Assembly (NCBI GenBank): GCA_023145375.1
Contig: JAGLDY010000051.1
Span: 1-64,000, forward strand
DNA length: 64,000 nucleotides
Source of the DNA: Candidatus Sabulitectum sp.
GTDB lineage: Bacteria > Fermentibacterota > Fermentibacteria > Fermentibacterales > JCC-6
Direction of reading: 5' to 3'
In this document: piece after piece, positions 2,122 to 56,116 of the stretch
Numbering within the stretch: the stretch's first letter is position 1
Layout: each line of letters opens with the position of its first letter
Program-made: the position numbers and the translations under genes
Notes under the pieces: model-generated
What the model was told of the DNA's origin: nothing
The model's input: only the letters and a program-made list of their open reading frames with translations
Databases searched by the model: none

Positions 2122-3579
2122 ATGGGAGTGGATTTGTCAGAAAAGCACTGTTGTTTCATCGCAGTTCTTGTCCTTCTTATCACGGTAGTTGTTTGTTTCT
2201 ACAGCACCTTGCGAGCAGGTTTTGTTTCAGACGATTATTTTCTGATAAATAGAGTAGCCAGCGAAGGTTTCTATTCGGGGTGGGGGGGGAACGGCTCGGT
2301 ATTCTTTCGTCCTGCAACCACCCTCACATTTCTTTTTGATCACAGTATCTGGGGAACCAGCTCCGCAGGTTTTCATCTAACCAACCTGTTCTGGCATCTC
2401 TTTGCAGGCATTGGTTTGTTTCTACTTTACTTTTTAGTGATGAAACAGCTCCCAATTATAAAACCCTGTTTGTATGCTACACTCTCATCTGTTCTTTTTC
2501 TTGTTCTTGCTTCTCATTCCGAGTCCGTAGCATGGGTTTCCGGAAGAACAGATATTATTGCCACAGTACTGTGTATTGCATCTCTCTACTTTTTTTACAG
2601 ACAATTGAATAAGAAATCCATTCTTTTTTCCACTCTAGCGCTTTTACTGTTTCCAATAGGGTTGCTTGCAAAAGAAAGTGTGATAATAACACCGCTCCTG
2701 TGGGGGCTTTTTCTGGCTTATTCTTCCCCGTCACGTGGAGAGAACCTTCGCAGGAATCTTACTCTTATCGGTTTTTCTACTCTGATTGCGGTGGCCTATT
2801 TTAGTTTTCGGATCATACTTGGAGACGGTCTGGTATCGGGTATCAGGTATGGAGGATTTCTTGATCTTTCTCCAGCTGGTTTTGCTGAGAATCTGGTTCG
2901 GTACACCCTGAGGGTATTGCTACCACCGTTTCCTCCTGGTCTTAGAGGAGTTGTTACAGAGAATCCCATAATCGTCTTACTATTTTTTGTCTTGTTGGTT
3001 CTGCCTGTTTCCATTCTAGTGTACAGAAGGGCTGAACAAAAAAAGAAGAACCTTCTTTTTCTCATGACCGGTTGCTTCTTCGCATCCCTTCTTCCGGTGC
3101 TTGGTATGAAGGTTTCCCTTTTTGACACTCAATCGGAGAGATTTCTATATCTGCCTGGAGTGTTTGCATCAGGCTTCTTTACAGTTGCAATGATATCTCT
3201 TTTCAAGGAGAGCAAACTTGCTTTGATCCTTCTTATCTGTGTAATTTTCTTACAGGGAATTTTCCTGCATAGATCAAATGAGAACTGGGCTCATGCAGGC
3301 AGGTTATGCTCCACCATTGCGCAATCTGTTTCGGAACATGATGCAGACAGTGTTTACATTCTCGCAATTCCAGACAGTTATCGCGGAGCATATGTGTTCA
3401 GGAACGGTTTGAATGAAGCCGTTGCCATGCTCAAAGGAGGGGAGCCCGATTACATTGTGTTATACAAGATCAGTTCCTACGGTGACTCCCTCATCTCAGA
3501 AAATGTTAACCTGATCGATCTGGATGAAACGGAGCGAACAGTTATCACTTGTGTGGACGGAAGAATGCAGTCCATTTAG
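2122..3579 (+). CDS. Multi-pass membrane protein, probable GT-C type glycosyltransferase
   Basis: 485 aa, many TM segments, N-terminal loop FVSDDYFLINRV and SVAWVSGRTDIIATV typical of GT-C/TMTC-like proteins. Confidence 0.6.
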   Translation: MGVDLSEKHCCFIAVLVLLITVVVCFYSTLRAGFVSDDYFLINRVASEGFYSGWGGNGSVFFRPATTLTFLFDHSIWGTSSAGFHLTNLFWHLFAGIGLFLLYFLVMKQLPIIKPCLYATLSSVLFLVLASHSESVAWVSGRTDIIATVLCIASLYFFYRQLNKKSILFSTLALLLFPIGLLAKESVIITPLLWGLFLAYSSPSRGENLRRNLTLIGFSTLIAVAYFSFRIILGDGLVSGIRYGGFLDLSPAGFAENLVRYTLRVLLPPFPPGLRGVVTENPIIVLLFFVLLVLPVSILVYRRAEQKKKNLLFLMTGCFFASLLPVLGMKVSLFDTQSERFLYLPGVFASGFFTVAMISLFKESKLALILLICVIFLQGIFLHRSNENWAHAGRLCSTIAQSVSEHDADSVYILAIPDSYRGAYVFRNGLNEAVAMLKGGEPDYIVLYKISSYGDSLISENVNLIDLDETERTVITCVDGRMQSI

Positions 3580-48004: not shown

Positions 48005-48433
48005 CTATTTTGGGATTCGGATCTTCTGTCCGGGGAATATCTTGTCTGCGTTTTTAATGACTTCCTTGTTGGCCTCAACAATTTTTGTGTATTTGCTGCC
48101 GTCACCGTAGTGCTTTTTTGCAACAGCCCACAGAGTATCCCCCGATTTGATCTCATAGTACTCCGTATTAATTCCGATTGGCAGTTTGCTCAGTACTTTG
48201 TTGATGATCTCACTGACACCCTTAACATTTCCTGCCATAAGGATGGCCTTCTCAACGGCTTCACTGTCGTCTGCTTTACCGGAAAGAGTAACAACACCGT
48301 TCTTAAAGGAGACAAGCAGATCAGAGATCCCGGGATTATCCTCCTCTATGTGTTCCTTTATCTTTTTCGGGGCATCTTCTTCCTTGTTGAAGAGATTCCT
48401 GCCCATGTCTGCTGCAAAATCAAAAAGTCCCAT
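48005..48433 (-). CDS. BON + LysM domain protein, homologous in layout to E. coli potassium-binding protein Kbp (YgaU)
   Basis: MGLFDFAADMGRNLF..., BON region VSFKNGVVTLSGKADDSEAVEKAILMAGNVKGVSEI, LysM YYEIKSGDTLWAVAKKHYGDGSKYTKIVEANKEVIKNADKIFPGQKIRIPK. Confidence 0.9.
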   Translation of the reverse strand: MGLFDFAADMGRNLFNKEEDAPKKIKEHIEEDNPGISDLLVSFKNGVVTLSGKADDSEAVEKAILMAGNVKGVSEIINKVLSKLPIGINTEYYEIKSGDTLWAVAKKHYGDGSKYTKIVEANKEVIKNADKIFPGQKIRIPK

Positions 48434-48458: not shown

Positions 48459-48986
48459 TTAGAAAAGTTTCTTCGCTATATCCAGAAGCCCTTCGGTAGA
48501 CGAATCGTCGGAATCTGATTTCAAAAGTGCCCCCAACAGCCCCCCTATATCCAGATTATTTCCAGAAGAGGGGGAACTCTCTTTGCTCATTACTCCCATG
48601 GCAACACTGGCAAGAACGGGAAGGATCTTCTTCAGTGTACTGCTGTCTACGCCAGTTTCTGCTGCCGCTTCCTCCGCCACATTGCGGCTGACCTCTTTGC
48701 TTCCCAGAATGTGACCGAGAATGGAATTGCCATCTGCTGTTGTGGCTGGATCTGAAATACTGTCAGGATCGTCGAGATAGTTCTGATGATTCCCGTTTGC
48801 CAGTGCGTTGATCAGTGACTCAAGACCGGCTTTGTCAGAAGTGTTTTTCTGTATTCCCTGTGAAAGCGCGGGGATCAGACTGCGGACAGCACTTTCAGCG
48901 AGACCAGAGGGCAAACCGAACTTGCTTGATATCTGCCCTACGATGTTTCTTCCCTGTGAGGCAAGGATTGAATTTAAGAGACCCAT
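48459..48986 (-). CDS. DUF937 (YidB-like) family protein
   Basis: MGLLNSILASQGRNIVGQISSKFGLPSGLAESAVRSLIPALSQGIQKN; start at internal ATG 48986. Confidence 0.8.
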   Translation of the reverse strand: MGLLNSILASQGRNIVGQISSKFGLPSGLAESAVRSLIPALSQGIQKNTSDKAGLESLINALANGNHQNYLDDPDSISDPATTADGNSILGHILGSKEVSRNVAEEAAAETGVDSSTLKKILPVLASVAMGVMSKESSPSSGNNLDIGGLLGALLKSDSDDSSTEGLLDIAKKLF

Positions 48987-49075
48987 GATTCCTCCTTTTG
49001 TTTGACCGTGCAACATTGTGAATTTCTGAGCACAGGTCAAGATAGAATGTATATAATTCAGGATGAATTGCAGGT

Positions 49076-49375
49076 GTGCTGGACGGTAAGAGGATTGTTG
49101 CTACAAAGATACCCAAGAGCGGAAATCTCAGGAATTGGCTTAGAGAGACGGACCCGGATGAAAGAAGAAAGATGTACTGTCACTGCCCGCGGGTTGATCA
49201 AGTTGTCAGCCGGGGTATAGATATGCCTGTGGAGTACTGTCCGTGCGGTGCAGGCTTTTACCGGGACATCCGGAAACAATTACAGAGTCACCTGTGAGAG
49301 TCGAAGTTATTGGATCTGTATTTGCCGGTGATGATCTCTGCCGCATCGCCATTTATCCCCTTCTCCTCAAAGGTT
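49076..49375 (+). pseudogene. Probable frameshifted and truncated remnant of a Cys-rich protein (CHCPRVDQV...VEYCPCGAGFYRDIR // [28 protein letters not shown])
   Basis: First frame ends at 49297; an adjacent frame encodes a coherent continuation ([28 protein letters not shown]); one missing base near CGGAAAC would join them. Confidence 0.55.
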
Positions 49376-49445: not shown

Positions 49446-51500
49446 ATGGGCGCGCCCAGCAATACGAGAAACATCGGCATATTTGCACACATAGATGCAG
49501 GAAAAACCACTGTAACAGAGAGAATTCTTTTCTACACCGGTCGCACCCACAGGATGGGTGATGTTGATCATGGCACTGCTGTCATGGACTGGATGCCCCA
49601 GGAGCGGGAGCGGGGTATCACTATCGTTTCTGCTGCCACCACCTGTGAATGGAACAAAACAAGAATTAACATCATTGATACTCCCGGTCATGTTGATTTC
49701 ACAGCGGAGGTTGAGCGTTCCCTCAGGGTACTGGATGGAGGGGTTGGTGTTTTCTGCGCTGTGGGGGGAGTTGAACCCCAGACGGAAACGGTCTGGCGAC
49801 AGGCTCAACGGTACTCTGTACCTGCTCTGGCTTTCGTGAACAAACTTGACAGACAGGGAGCAGATTTTCACCGTGTCCTCCAGATGATGAAGGACATTCT
49901 GGGAGAGACACCTCTACCGGTGATGCTTCCAGTGGGAGAGGGAAGCAACTTCAAGGGTGTTATAGACATCCTTGAGCAGAAAGCTCTTTACTTCGATATG
50001 GAATCACTGGGCTCAAAGTTCAGTGTGAAGGAAATACCGGAGGATCTTCAGGATGAAGCTGCAGAGGCTCTTGAGAAGATAAAGGAGACAGTTGCTGAAC
50101 TTGATGACGGAGCTATGGAGAGGTATTTCGCCGGAGAGCTGGGTAAGGAAGAGATAAATTCACTTCTCAGGAAAGGCACCATAGCAGGTCTGTTTATTCC
50201 CGTTCTCTGCGGTGCTGCCCTGCGGAATGTGGGAGTACAAAGGCTTCTTGATGCCATTGTTGACTGGCTGCCTGCTCCGGAAGAGCTTCCATCAGTTACA
50301 GGCATCAAACCCAACGGTAAAGAGGAAATCCGGGAAAGATCTGACAGTGAGCCCTTTACTGCCCTGGTTTTCAAGATACAGACAGACGCCCACCTTGGCC
50401 GACTTGCGTATCTCAGGGTCTATTCAGGAACAGCCAGGGACGGACAGTCAGTCTACAACAACAGAACCGGAAAAAAAGAAAGACTTACCAGGCTCGTGAT
50501 GATGCACGCAGACAAGAGAATTCATCTTGATAATATCTCCGAGGGTGACATAGCAGCAGCTGGCATGAAGAATGCAGCCACTGGAGATACCCTTACCGTT
50601 CTGGGCAGACCTCTTACCCTGGAAACAATACATTTCGTGGATCCTGTGATGGAAATGGCAATTGAATCAGTAGGAGCAGGCGATGAAAAGAAGCTGGAGG
50701 ATGCTCTGAAAGACATGACCAGTGAAGATCCCAGCCTGAAAGTTGGAGTTGACAGAGAGACTGGCCAGACCTTGATCCGCGGCATGGGAGAACTGCATCT
50801 GGAAATAGTTGTGGACAGAATGAAACGGGAGAAGAAACTGGATGTTCGCACCGGGAGACCTCAGGTTTCTTACAGGGAAAGCGTTTCTTCCGTTGGAAGT
50901 GGCGAGGAGACTTTCGAGAGGCTTATCGCAGGGAAGGGTAACTTCGGGAATGCAGTAATTGAAGTCAGACCGATGGAGAAAGGTATAAGATTCACATCTG
51001 CAACAGACTCTCTTTCAAGACAGTTTCTGGATGCGGTTAAAAGCGGCATAATGGGATCGGTGAGTGCCGGCGTTCTTGCAGGTTATCCACTGGATGGAGT
51101 TGAGATAATTCTTAAAGGTGCCAGGATGCATGAAACTGATTCAACGGAGATTGGGTACAGCTCTTCAGCAGCTATTGCCCTTAGAAAAGCTCTCCGAAAA
51201 GCCTCCCCAGTTATCAGAGAACCGATAATGAAAGTTGATATTGTCACCCCTGCAGATTATATGGGCGATGTTATCGGTGATGTTAACGCCAGGCGGGGAA
51301 CTGTGGTTTCCATAGACCAGAGAGGGGAAGCGCAGGCTATCCTGGCAAACATCCCCCTTTCAGAACTTTTTGGTTACACAAGTTCATTGCGAAGTCTCTC
51401 GCAGGGTCGGGCAGGTTACACCATGCAGTTCAATAATTATGCACTGGTACCGCCGAATGTTCAGAAGAAACTGCTTGACAAAATGGGCATCACTTTTTAA
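49446..51500 (+). CDS. fusA: Elongation factor G
   Basis: [83 protein letters not shown] at 49446. Confidence 0.97.
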
Positions 51501-51527
51501 GCACATTTCGAAATTGAAGTTTAGTGA

Positions 51528-52172
51528 TTAACCGGGATAGATAGTCTTTATCTCTTTTACTCTCTCTCTGATTCTGCGCTGAGGTGCAATCACTATTCTG
51601 CACTGAGGGTCGCCCATGGCTTTACACGTAATCTCTTTCGCCTCCAGCTGCACACCGAAAGATTCAGTACACCAGCCTGCTGAGTATCCTACTGTGAAGA
51701 AGTCAACAGGAGTATCGGAAATGAGCCCAGCTTTCAGATGGGCATCTGCCTCGTAGGAATTGCCCTGGTCATAGACAAGCAAAAAATTCTCATCTGTTGT
51801 TGGTGTGGTTTCCGGAAGTATGGTTACATTGGCATAACCGTTGAGGGCAAAAGAAGTGGGTCCCATGGCGAGTTTCAAGATGGTATCTTCAGTTCCGGTT
51901 TTCTCAAAGTAGTACCTGGCGTCAGCAGCTCCTGCTGCTTTACCTATCTGGTATATAACCACTCCCGCGCTTGATCCCAGAACTGAAGTAAGTTGATCTT
52001 TCAGTGCTATGGCCATTGATTCGCCGCGGTATAGAACAAATCTTTCGGAAGATATCGTGATTTTACCCTCATCAGGTCTCCTTTCAAAGTTTTCAAAGAT
52101 AGGAGTAAGCATGTTTTCAGCCATTTCAAACAGAGGGGCAAACGCATCCGGACACTTTACATATTTGGGCAT
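51528..52172 (-). CDS. Stand-alone V4R-domain protein (paralog 1)
   Basis: VGYSAGWCTESFGVQLEAKEITCKAMGDPQCRIVIAP V4R signature; ATG at 52172, 214 aa. Confidence 0.82.
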   Translation of the reverse strand: MPKYVKCPDAFAPLFEMAENMLTPIFENFERRPDEGKITISSERFVLYRGESMAIALKDQLTSVLGSSAGVVIYQIGKAAGAADARYYFEKTGTEDTILKLAMGPTSFALNGYANVTILPETTPTTDENFLLVYDQGNSYEADAHLKAGLISDTPVDFFTVGYSAGWCTESFGVQLEAKEITCKAMGDPQCRIVIAPQRRIRERVKEIKTIYPG

Positions 52173-52300
52173 GACAATTCCTTTCAAAAGAGCAACAGAC
52201 ACCTCAACTATTAACAAGCAGGCGAAACAGCAACAATCAATAGGGATAACAGATTGTATTGCAGAAATATAATGCATTTGTTAGCTATTTTTCTATTTAT

Positions 52301-52309
52301 ATTCAGAAT
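52301..52309 (+). repeat. Left target-site duplication ATTCAGAAT
   Basis: Identical to 53635-53643 immediately outside the inverted repeats. Confidence 0.85.
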
Positions 52310-53634
52310 CACTAGTGTCCCAACGTTGAAGAAAGTCAACTCCGTAATATATGGTTTGATATGCAGATAGAGGAATAGAAGATGGGTAACGACTTGAAAC
52401 GCCTTATACAGGCATATTGCTTCTTCATACTAGAATGGAGAAAGCATGTATTCAGGCCGATTCGTCTTCTCTCAAGTAATGGATCATCTTCCTTACAAGT
52501 CATTTGCGCGTATTGTAAACAAGTACTCTGGAGATTACAAAATCCAGCATTTCTCCTGCAAGAGCCAGTTTTACTGTATGGCTTTCGGTCAGCTGACCTA
52601 CAGAAACAGTCTCAGAGATATCATTATGTGTCTGAACGCCAATCAAAACAAACTCTATCACATGGGAATCCGTGGAACTATTTCTCGCAACAACCTTTCC
52701 AACGCGAATATGAACAGAGACTGGCGCATCTACGCAGAGCTGGCTCAAGTACTCATCAGTACAGCAAGGAAACTTTATGCTGATGAGAAATTCAGCGATC
52801 AGATCAACGAACCAGTATATGCACTTGATTCTACAACGATCTCCATGTCATTATCTCTTTTCCCATGGGCAGAATTTCGAAAATCACGCGGAGGAATCAA
52901 GTTGCATACGCTTCTTGAGTTGCCCAGCTCCATTCCCACTTTCATTGATATCACAGCTGCAAAGCCTCATGATGTCAATATTCTTGACAGGATTATCCTT
53001 GAGCCAGGTGCTTACTATGTCATGGATATGGGCTATATGGACTTCACCAGATTGTTTCGAATTACACAGAGTGGAGCTTTCTTCGTTACCCGTGCCAAAC
53101 GGAATGTACTCCTCAAGCGAAGATATTCTCTGCCCAGGGATAAGTCCCAAAGGGACATTCTTTCAGATCAAATCGTTTTTGCTGAGAAGGAAAGCAGTTA
53201 TGCGAAGTATCCAGCAGTTCTTAGGAGGATACGGTATAGAGATCCCGAGGAGGGAAATGTGTATTTGTTTCTGACTAACAATTTTGATTTGGAAGCATCA
53301 ACAATCGCGACACTCTATAAAGGACGCTGGCAGGTCGAGTTGTTTTTCAAATGGATCAAGCAGCATCTCCGAATACAGACATTCTTTGGTCACAGCCTAA
53401 ATGCCGTGAAGACACAGATATGGATTGGCGTCTCGGTTTATGTGCTTGTTTCAATAATACGCAAAAGACTGAATTTGGAGAATTTATCTCTCTACAATAT
53501 TCTACAGGTATTAAGCGTGTCTCCATTTTGTTATGATGGGTTGCAGCAACTATTTACCGATGACCGGCTTCAGGAGAGTGAATATAATAACCCTAACCAG
53601 TTGTCCCTGTTTGACTTATGATGGGACACTAGTG
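52310..53634 (+). mobile_element. IS4-family type insertion sequence, 1325 bp, apparently intact
   Basis: Terminal inverted repeats CACTAGTGTCCCA (52310-52322) / TGGGACACTAGTG (53622-53634), 9-bp direct repeats ATTCAGAAT on both sides, single full-length transposase. Confidence 0.92.
52446..53621 (+). CDS. IS4-type DDE transposase with DUF4372-like N-terminus
   Basis: SGRFVFSQVMDHLPYKSFARIVNKYSGDYKIQHFSCKSQFYCMAFGQLTYRNSLRDI; ALDSTTI (D), YYVMDMGYMDF (D), YKGRWQVELFFKWIKQHL (Y-R-E-K). Confidence 0.93.
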   Translation: MYSGRFVFSQVMDHLPYKSFARIVNKYSGDYKIQHFSCKSQFYCMAFGQLTYRNSLRDIIMCLNANQNKLYHMGIRGTISRNNLSNANMNRDWRIYAELAQVLISTARKLYADEKFSDQINEPVYALDSTTISMSLSLFPWAEFRKSRGGIKLHTLLELPSSIPTFIDITAAKPHDVNILDRIILEPGAYYVMDMGYMDFTRLFRITQSGAFFVTRAKRNVLLKRRYSLPRDKSQRDILSDQIVFAEKESSYAKYPAVLRRIRYRDPEEGNVYLFLTNNFDLEASTIATLYKGRWQVELFFKWIKQHLRIQTFFGHSLNAVKTQIWIGVSVYVLVSIIRKRLNLENLSLYNILQVLSVSPFCYDGLQQLFTDDRLQESEYNNPNQLSLFDL

Positions 53635-53643
53635 ATTCAGAAT
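53635..53643 (+). repeat. Right target-site duplication ATTCAGAAT
   Basis: Direct repeat matching 52301-52309. Confidence 0.85.
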
Positions 53644-53871
53644 ATAGAATATGTTGTCAATCTGCGCAAGATAACCGACGGAGAACAGGATTCAGCACAA
53701 ATATTCAGGCGTGAAGCGATATGTGGCTATTTGTATTGAATTGGCAGTCCGGTTCGTATCAGGTCGTCTCAAAACAGTCATCGAATTGATAGAATAGAAC
53801 TCTTTTATTCGGGAATTGATTTATACTGAGAGCAACTGTCTTAGCAGTTCTGTAGACGGTGCTGGCGGAAA

Positions 53872-53900
53872 AACCGGCTCCCCTTCAAGAGGAGCCGGTT
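53872..53900 (-). terminator. Rho-independent terminator for V4R paralog 2
   Basis: AACCGGCTCC...GGAGCCGGTT stem followed on the minus strand by a T-run (GGTTTTT). Confidence 0.85.
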
Positions 53901-53923
53901 ATTGGGCAGCAATCTGAGTTTAC

Positions 53924-54568
53924 TTATTTTTCGTACAGGGCTTTCATTTCCTTAACACGCTCTCTTAAGCGATGACTTGGTGCCATTACAAATCTGCACT
54001 GAGGATCTCCCATGGCCTTGCAGAAGATCTCTTTCGCCTCAAGTTTCAGTTCGAAAGCCTCGGAACACCAACCTGCAGAGTACCCTGCGTTCAGGTAATC
54101 AACAGGTACTGTAGTGGCTATACCCTTTTTGATATGAGCTTCCGCTTCGTAGGAATTTGGGTGGTCGTATACAAGGAGGAAGTTTTCATTAGGAGCTGGT
54201 GTACTTTCAGGCAGAATGGTGACATTGGCATAACCGCCAAGGGCGAATGAGACTGGTCCCATTGCCAGTCTCTGATCCGGATCCTGGACACCTGTTTTTT
54301 CAAAGTAGTATCTTGCGTCTGCAGCTCCGGTGGCTTTTCCTATCTGGTAGATAACCACTCCGGCGCCTGGCCCCAGAACGGAGGTGAGTTGCTGTTTCAT
54401 TGCGATCGCCATGGATTCTGCCCTGTATATTACATATCTCTCTGATGCAACGGTGATACTGCCCTTCTCGGGATTTCTGCTGAAATCTTCAAAAAAGGGC
54501 GAGATCACTTTTTCAGCGGCTTCAAACAAGGGAGAGAAGGCCGGGGGGCAGTTGACATATTCAGCCAT
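53924..54568 (-). CDS. Stand-alone V4R-domain protein (paralog 2)
   Basis: Same length and closely similar to 51528-52172 (SMAIAMKQQLTSVLGPGAGVVIYQIGKATGAADARYYFEKTG; AGYSAGWCSEAFELKLEAKEIFCKAMGDPQCRFVMAPSHRLRERVKEMKALY). Confidence 0.82.
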   Translation of the reverse strand: MAEYVNCPPAFSPLFEAAEKVISPFFEDFSRNPEKGSITVASERYVIYRAESMAIAMKQQLTSVLGPGAGVVIYQIGKATGAADARYYFEKTGVQDPDQRLAMGPVSFALGGYANVTILPESTPAPNENFLLVYDHPNSYEAEAHIKKGIATTVPVDYLNAGYSAGWCSEAFELKLEAKEIFCKAMGDPQCRFVMAPSHRLRERVKEMKALYEK

Positions 54569-54851
54569 AAGTTTCCTTTCCAGAATGTGTAGGTTTTTAT
54601 TCTCCAAGCAATATACAGATTTATCTGCAAAAGTATCAACACCGGGATCACCTTCGTGAAGGTTACCGGGAGACTTGTACAGGATATGGGATGCACCATT
54701 CACTGAGTCTATCGTTTTCCTCGATACTGTAGCCGGTGAGACTGCGGGAGTTGTTGTTGGGAAAACACAATCAGGGGTCTTTCTCCTTCTGTGTGATAGT
54801 CTGCAGGCTGGCTGAATGCTGGTGAATCTATAGTTACTTTCTTCGGGGTAG

Positions 54852-54877
54852 CACAATTGACTGCGATTGTGTATAAT
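54852..54877 (+). promoter_or_regulatory. Inverted repeat CACAAT-N8-ATTGTG abutting a TATAAT box, upstream of rpsJ
   Basis: Arms 54852-54857 and 54866-54871; TATAAT at 54872-54877; no clear -35 at standard spacing. Confidence 0.4.
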
Positions 54878-55028
54878 AGCCATCCCTGTGGGCTTCTATG
54901 GGTCCAGCAGGTGCAATAGAGTATCAGGTGTTTGTGTGGAAGCCTGTGTGCTGTAGGCAGATGGGTTTCTCGCGACAGTTTATGTCTGGCGGGATTTCCC
55001 GCTGGTAGTTGTTTGTTAAGGAGTTGCA

Positions 55029-55334
55029 TTGAACGAGAACAGATTGAGGATCAGACTCAGGGCATATGATCATCGTCTTCTTGACAGGTCGTCCACAGAC
55101 ATAGTGCGGGGTGTTGTCAACACCGGTGCTCGTGTTGCCGGACCGATACCCCTGCCAACAAGGCGTTCGGTTATTACTGTTCTGAGAAGCCCTCATGTGA
55201 ACAAGAAGTCACGTGAGCAGTTTGAGATCAGGGTTCATTCTCGACTTATCGAGATAATGGATCCAAATGAGCAGACCACGGAAGCACTCAGGAAATTGGA
55301 TGTTCCTGCTGGTGTTGATGTGGAGATCAAGTAG
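55029..55334 (+). CDS. rpsJ: 30S ribosomal protein S10 (TTG start)
   Basis: [71 protein letters not shown]. Confidence 0.98.
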
Positions 55335-55356
55335 TAATTAGTTCCATTCCTTACTG

Positions 55357-55460
55357 ACCCGGTTGTTCCGGGTTAAGAGGAAAAACCGCACTGGCGGACG
55401 AGGACGGTCGATCCTCCTGGCGGCAAAACAGAAACGCTTGTCCCCCCGTTCCATGGGGAC
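55357..55460 (+). promoter_or_regulatory. Three consecutive small hairpins in the rpsJ-rplC spacer, candidate r-protein leader RNA
   Basis: ACCCGG-TTGTT-CCGGGT (55357-55373), GAGGA-CGGTCGA-TCCTC (55400-55416), GTCCCC-CCGTTCCAT-GGGGAC (55440-55460). Confidence 0.45.
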
Positions 55461-55480
55461 TTCAGCGATGGGAAGTGGTT

Positions 55481-56116
55481 ATGAGCGGAATAATGGCTCG
55501 TAAATTAGGTATGACCCGTGTCTTCGCGGAAGACGGTCGTGTAATACCTGTTACGGTGCTTGAAGCTGCCCCCAACCCGGTGGTGCAGGTAAAGACCCCC
55601 CGGACCGACGGATACTCCGCGGTTCAGGTGGGATACTGGCCAAAGAAGGAGAGCAGGCTCAATAAGCCCCTCAAGGGTCACCTTGACAAGGCTGGAGTTT
55701 CCTCTGTTTCAAGACTTGTTGAATTCCCGGCTTCCGGAGCTGAGGTCAAAACCGGTGATTTTTTCACGGTTTCGATGTTTGTTCCAGGAGAGAAGGTAAA
55801 TGTTACAGGTCTCACCAAGGGTAAGGGTTTCCAGGGTGTTGTTAAACGCCACGGATTCTCGGGTGGTGATGATACGCACGGTTGTCATGCCAAGCGTATC
55901 CCCGGTTCAATTGGCCAGTGTGCCACTCCGGGAAGAGTATGGAAGAACAAGAAGATGCCCGGTCAGACCGGAAATACCAGAACAACGGTGAAGAACCTCG
56001 AGGTTATTCAGATCGATGTTGAAAAGAACCTTCTGGTTATTAAGGGTGCTGTACCCGGTGCTAGGAACGGCTACCTCATGGTGAGGAAGCAGATTCGCAA
56101 GGGAGGTGAGAGCTGA
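55481..56116 (+). CDS. rplC: 50S ribosomal protein L3 (GTG at 55475 is an alternative start)
   Basis: GIMARKLGMTRVFAEDGRVIPVTVLEA, TKGKGFQGVVKRHGFSGGDDTHG. Confidence 0.98.
   Translation: MSGIMARKLGMTRVFAEDGRVIPVTVLEAAPNPVVQVKTPRTDGYSAVQVGYWPKKESRLNKPLKGHLDKAGVSSVSRLVEFPASGAEVKTGDFFTVSMFVPGEKVNVTGLTKGKGFQGVVKRHGFSGGDDTHGCHAKRIPGSIGQCATPGRVWKNKKMPGQTGNTRTTVKNLEVIQIDVEKNLLVIKGAVPGARNGYLMVRKQIRKGGES

Follow-up and report, generated by a model that had tools for sequence, protein, structure and literature searches.

What might two small sensor-like proteins be doing between the genes for elongation factor G and ribosomal protein S10? This question arises from a 64,000-nucleotide stretch (hereafter the window) of a draft genome of Candidatus Sabulitectum (Fermentibacterota; 145 contigs), in which two minus-strand genes, V4R-A and V4R-B, stand between fusA and rpsJ and are separated from each other by an insertion sequence (IS). 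A preliminary description of this DNA had reported the two genes, their paralogy, their location, and the intervening element, all of which we could confirm: the two proteins, each of 214 amino acids (aa), align without gaps and are identical at 145 of 212 positions (68%), and the element belongs to the IS4 family and has intact ends. The answer that we favor, with a confidence only slightly better than even, is that V4R-B and its duplicate V4R-A would be stand-alone, zinc-stabilized sensors of a hydrophobic ligand other than phenol, which sensors would signal in trans.

The N-terminal half of both proteins matches XylR_N (PF06505; E = 6e-9 and 7e-8; 36 and 32.5 bits, the cut-off being 23), a half that the preliminary description had not noticed, while the C-terminal half matches V4R (PF02830; E = 1.1e-6 and 5.1e-7) at 29–30 bits, slightly below the 31-bit protein cut-off; in a DNA-level search the V4R scores of 31.6 and 32.6 bits were both above the cut-off, which result upholds the original V4R assignment. 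The two domains together span nearly the full length of both proteins, and no output domain, either AAA+ or DNA-binding, was found, both frames stopping behind the sensor. Each protein is a complete XylR_N-plus-V4R sensory module of the MopR/PoxR/DmpR type, without an output domain. Although mechanically called open reading frames extend farther upstream (249 and 319 aa), homology starts at MPKYV/MAEYV. A profile search of the host genome gave no further V4R match besides A and B, and a viral sequence collection yielded no relatives. Among solved structures, only the sensor domains of PoxR and MopR were retrieved at E < 0.01 by sequence. The AlphaFold2 model, which was built on a shallow alignment, gave MopR, PoxR, and DmpR as the top Foldseek matches, with a template-modeling (TM) score of about 0.4, and only the MopR and PoxR sensor domains at E < 0.001; with a mean predicted local-distance difference test (pLDDT) value of 57 and an unreliable C-terminal half, mostly below a pLDDT of 50, according to this low-confidence model the fold may be MopR-like.

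MopR, PoxR, and DmpR, the sigma-54 activators of phenol catabolism that are the top matches of the window proteins in both sequence and fold, share with them the two-domain module of about 180 aa, three of the four zinc ligands, and several hydrophobic pocket positions. Unlike those activators, the window proteins have neither an AAA+ nor a helix-turn-helix (HTH) domain, lack the His and Trp that bind phenol, and carry an Asp in place of one zinc Cys and a Cys in place of the gate Ser or Thr. We mapped the MopR residues onto V4R-A and V4R-B, with the roles of those residues taken from the literature (PMC10715001; PMC7264223), and compared 20 homologues. The MopR zinc ligands C155, E178, C181, and C189 (PMC7264223; PMC10715001) correspond to D157, E180, C183, and C191, so that the full four-ligand site of MopR and DmpR, consisting of three Cys and one Glu, is incomplete here at the position of Asp157, with E180, C183, and C191 being invariant in the 20 homologues. 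At the fourth position nearly every member of the Sabulitectum/Aegiribacteria clade has Asp, whereas Cys stands there in the more distant homologues, for which reason the simplest reading of the alignment would be a Cys-to-Asp change on the Sabulitectum/Aegiribacteria branch. Asp is capable of zinc ligation. In the phenol sensors MopR, PoxR, DmpR, and PheR the phenol hydroxyl is anchored by His106 and Trp134 (PMC10715001), which pair is replaced in the window proteins by F108 together with H136 in B or Q136 in A, the latter residue being also found in G006. The pocket-gate S166 of MopR becomes C168, with a Cys there in nearly all the Fermentibacterota members and in G048, and P105, Y163, and L101 preserve a largely hydrophobic pocket. 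The preliminary description was right about the conservation of the cysteines, which, as judged from the residue mapping, would fit a structural zinc site (PMC7264223) and not a demonstrated redox switch.

A sensory role for the module is indicated by the company that its relatives keep: the module is fused to GGDEF in G022 and G035 and to STAS in G135, and is also found in frames of 530–640 aa, the length of XylR/NtrC-type activators. (The V4R-GGDEF fusions observed in two genomes of a neighboring genus, at L043:6658-7965, 435 aa, and L045:6893-8185, 430 aa, are relatives of the stand-alone V4R.) The preliminary description had regarded stand-alone V4R proteins as an anomaly, which view does not hold: the V4R domain has been described as occurring either alone or fused, with signaling in cis or in trans (PMC2253512), and XylR_N-bearing frames of stand-alone size, about 200–256 aa, occur in about five genomes outside the phylum, whose domains were scanned in part, as well as on catabolic plasmids of Rhodococcus. 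The type is already documented, and what we have here, a lineage-specific uncommon location, is less remarkable than was originally held. The Rhodococcus protein, annotated as a "4-vinyl reductase" (e.g., WP_012687242.1), is likewise composed entirely of XylR_N and V4R (223 aa, 31% identical) and has, by eye, a Phe at the phenol-binding His position, as in the window proteins, though an Ala where these have Cys168; its gene overlaps by 4 bp the end of a gene for a GntR/FCD regulator and lies beside aromatic-ring dioxygenase genes in a cluster for aromatic catabolism, whereas no partner of this kind accompanies the genes of the window. An in-trans sensor is the mechanism with the best support, which comes from this overlap in conjunction with the published account of solitary V4R domains that signal in trans (PMC2253512). 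According to that mechanism, V4R-B would probably form a zinc-stabilized homodimer, whose pocket, homologous to that of MopR, PoxR, and DmpR, might bind a small hydrophobic molecule other than phenol, and would pass the signal through protein–protein contact to a partner with a gene of its own, most probably a regulator. MsvR, a V4R redox regulator of methanogens with conserved cysteines (PMC3729527), resembles the window proteins in those cysteines and differs in its HTH domain; neither the match to MsvR (E = 0.057) nor the score in the corresponding family model (NF053755, 13 bits versus a cut-off of 220) places the window proteins in that group.

Several considerations weigh against an in-trans sensor of this kind. 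The structural support comes from the weak model already described, with its low Foldseek TM score; the Asp replacing the zinc Cys could mean a weak or absent zinc binding; V4R-B is monocistronic, and the V4R orthologues outside the genus have no shared neighbor; and neither a ligand nor a partner of V4R-B was found in this analysis. Furthermore, the family is patchy, being present in 18 of the 43 Fermentibacterota genomes sampled, the window's own included, and its function is therefore dispensable.

The position of the genes is real: the fusA–V4R junction, with V4R in the opposite orientation, recurs in seven other Sabulitectum assemblies (G001, G002, G005, G006, G007, G008, and G010) and, with a decayed copy, in an eighth (G011), thus ruling out an artifact of assembly. 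V4R adjoins rpsJ in G006, G007, and G010; the V4R of G003 lies beside hydrogenase genes on a contig of 3 kb that lacks fusA, and in G004, in which no V4R is present, the contig ends at the junction. The closest relatives of V4R-B in named assemblies belong to Candidatus Sabulitectum and other Fermentibacteraceae. In nine outgroup genomes (G013, G015, G017, G020, G021, G023, G024, G028, and G039) fusA and rpsJ are only about 40–75 bp apart, and in two others (G016 and G018) different material lies between them. Within Sabulitectum the cargo of the junction varies among V4R, V4R with a [NiFe]-hydrogenase island, and a small Met-rich gene; this last, found without V4R in G012 (L061:4451-4750) and G009 (L062, about 2900-3240), encodes in G012 a protein of 99 aa with no Pfam or NCBIfam match. 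The explanation that best accommodates these arrangements, and to which we give somewhat more credence than doubt, is that V4R was gained in Sabulitectum at the fusA–rpsJ boundary, a junction that receives other genes too.

Copies A and B are saturated at synonymous sites, with a proportion of nonsynonymous differences (pN) of 0.20, which indicates that they did not arise by a recent duplication. Phylogenetically, the second copies from G000 (the window genome) and G010 form one long branch and those from G001 and G020 another, separate one, both of unresolved deeper placement; fusA, taken alone, leaves the genus without resolution. In G010 the second copy is missing its 5' portion and has a frameshift, in G020 it is interrupted by a relative of the IS4 element of the window, and in G001 it has lost D157 and C168, while V4R-A of the window retains all the metal-site residues. 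Copy A may best be explained, and we lean modestly toward this view, as a duplicate in slow turnover that was later parted from B by the IS4 element. That element interrupts neither gene, its insertion point being intergenic, and is present in the assembly as one full copy, plus elsewhere only a 322-bp fragment of 74% similarity. The G020 contig that carries the truncated second copy (L030/L048; WTBT01000002.1, 5524 bp) is binned as Aegiribacteria, its V4R nests with that of Sabulitectum G001, and an ATA stands in place of the start codon; this contig, which may be mis-binned Sabulitectum DNA or a recent transfer, was not relied on as a record from Aegiribacteria, but was counted in the co-occurrence table.

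Since a strong terminator stands after V4R-B, the two genes are probably separate transcription units (Table 1); a B–A operon is unlikely, with such a terminator following B in the window, G001, and G020. Stem-loops of this kind are also found 3' of the gene in G001_B, G005, G007, G010_B, and G020_B, and the TATATT of the promoter-like site recurs at a comparable distance upstream in six of eight Sabulitectum V4R-B orthologues. On the other side, the promoter-like core and leader of rpsJ are present in eight Sabulitectum genomes, either with or without V4R, and are independent of fusA; the rpsJ operon having its own signals, the V4R genes lie between two transcription units and outside any operon. 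The leader of about 150 nt before rpsJ is a candidate S10-operon leader as judged by its sequence, with no Rfam family matching it, and the whole region 51400-55500 gave no Rfam match up to E = 1.

Table 1. Features of the fusA–rpsJ region, in window coordinates.
Feature	Position	Strand	Remarks
fusA (elongation factor G)	49446-51500	+	Left neighbor, convergent with V4R-A; full-length matches 85–89% identical in Sabulitectum; start set from 684-aa homologues
V4R-A	51528-52172	-	XylR_N + V4R; second, faster-evolving copy; D157, C168, E180, C183, C191 kept, Gln at 136
Flanking duplication, left copy	52301-52309	not assigned	9 bp, ATTCAGAAT; sequence, repeat search
IS4-family element	52310-53634	+	Inverted repeats CACTAGTGTCCCA / TGGGACACTAGTG intact at 52310-52322 / 53622-53634
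IS4-family transposase	52446-53621	+	391 aa; DUF4372 + DDE_Tnp_1, Pfam 1e-29 each; NCBIfam NF033592, 4e-77
Flanking duplication, right copy	53635-53643	not assigned	9 bp, ATTCAGAAT; sequence
Intrinsic-terminator hairpin and U-run, 3' of V4R-B	53872-53900	-	-24.7 kcal/mol, z = -4.2
V4R-B	53924-54568	-	XylR_N + V4R, 214 aa; copy conserved genus-wide
Sigma-70-type promoter-like site of V4R-B	54610-54639	-	TTGATA-18-TATATT; 10/12 consensus match; 42 nt upstream
rpsJ (S10) operon promoter-like and leader region	54845-55028	+	Near-identical core GGGGTAGC(G/A)CAATTGAC...TATAATAGCC in 8 Sabulitectum genomes
rpsJ (ribosomal protein S10)	55029-55334	+	Right neighbor, divergent from V4R-B; matches 96–99% identical in Sabulitectum

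The surroundings of V4R in other members of the genus raise an alternative, which we judge unlikely: that V4R-B were a dedicated regulator or accessory of a divergent [NiFe]-hydrogenase island, left behind in the window genome after that island was lost. This hydrogenase lies at the fusA–rpsJ locus in all five Sabulitectum genomes that have it, four of which carry it on V4R's divergent side: the operon is directly divergent from V4R in G001, G003, and G005, while in G002 the hyp genes stand first beside V4R, within a large island in the order hypF, hypD, hypE, hydX, hydS, hydL, a ferredoxin protein, a protease, hypA, and hypB, followed by rpsJ (L126, G002:C92:85000-99500, and L035, G002:C92:99000-115000; further such loci being L031, L033, L034, and L044), and some 4 kb separate the hydrogenase from the decayed V4R in G011. 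Outside the genus, the V4R of G039 is about 10 kb from hypD. Five Sabulitectum genomes, nevertheless, carry V4R without the hydrogenase, so that in this small sample the association gives a Fisher p of 0.23, and across the 43 genomes of the phylum no association was found (hydrogenase in 10 of 18 genomes with V4R versus 10 of 25 without; Fisher p = 0.37), ten genomes having the hydrogenase without V4R and eight, the window's included, the reverse. Moreover, G023 and G024 carry a homologous operon with no V4R beside it, V4R has no DNA-binding domain, and the window genome, though without this hydrogenase, retains HypD as well as a small-subunit-like gene of 182 aa, which is distinct and shorter and lies about 5 kb away from HypD. 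A link between V4R and the hydrogenase is thus possible; a bolder version, in which the altered pocket of V4R-B (the Cys168 gate, His136, and Asp157) would sense a redox-active or electron-carrier-like hydrophobic molecule and control hydrogen metabolism in trans, with the divergent island as the original target, we hold to be improbable to a still greater degree. In Aegiribacteria the homologous operon is located elsewhere than fusA–rpsJ and is preceded by genes that by eye look like those for roadblock/LC7 proteins, MglA-type GTPases, and DUF4388 proteins (L066:1534-5144 and L068:2407-5970), and some genes of similar appearance also lie near V4R in G011 (L044). HydX (L031:8138-8632; about 161 aa; homologues in 20 genomes) has no Pfam or NCBIfam match and stands immediately before the small-subunit gene wherever both were inspected. 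This protein and the ferredoxin-fusion protein were suspected by eye to be distant relatives of V4R, which notion the hhalign probabilities of less than 1% dismissed.

That V4R-B were instead a BchJ-like carrier or chaperone of a hydrophobic metabolite, and not a signaling protein, also seems to us a poor prospect. BchJ and the Bet3/TRAPP-type proteins are, as here, single-module members of the V4R superfamily (PMC2253512), and a stand-alone protein without an output domain would suit such a function; the window proteins, however, have the XylR_N half as well, the match to BchJ is weak (E = 0.16; TIGR02019, 11.8 bits versus a cut-off of 74.3) in comparison with those to the XylR_N-type sensors, the relatives that are fused to GGDEF or STAS, or whose gene is paired with one for a GntR regulator, point to signaling, and no biosynthetic gene is linked. 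Another possibility, which we think very unlikely, is that insertions into an intergenic site that tolerates them left the pair behind as a neutral relic for which no function is maintained. The patchy distribution, the changing cargo of the junction, and the deterioration of copy A in G010, G020, and G001 would agree with such a relic, but the B orthologues have ratios of nonsynonymous to synonymous divergence (dN/dS) of about 0.03–0.15 where dS is measurable, with synonymous sites near saturation, indicating purifying selection; under that constraint, and with invariant metal-site residues, a neutral relic could apply at most to copy A. The least probable proposal, to which we attach hardly any credence, is that the ribosomal operons on either side are under the control of the V4R proteins, a connection that the preliminary description had seen implied by the site. 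In its favor are the position between fusA and rpsJ and the divergence from rpsJ in the window, G006, G007, and G010; yet the V4R genes occupy a junction of varying cargo between two transcription units, one that is closed in most of the sampled outgroups, three congeners without V4R keep the same rpsJ leader core, the proteins have no DNA- or RNA-binding domain, and the V4R genes of other genera are located elsewhere.

The preceding junction of the window, between rpsG and fusA, also carries extra genes, namely LysM/BON (48005-48433) and DUF937 (48459-49040), along with a short frame (49076-49297) that resembles a DUF6144-like protein intact in relatives. Among the relatives this junction is likewise variable, containing LysM/BON, DUF937, DUF6144-like, nitroreductase-like, and lipoprotein-like genes.

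For the family, this pair adds a genus-wide and strongly constrained example of sensor modules without an output domain. For the organism, the fusA–rpsJ boundary, near-contiguous in most of the sampled relatives, has in one lineage been turned into a cargo site for V4R, a hydrogenase-maturation island, or a Met-rich gene, so that gene order at a ribosomal locus is by itself no sign of a ribosomal function. A partner of V4R-B, if found, would put to a direct test the signaling in trans that was long ago proposed for V4R proteins.

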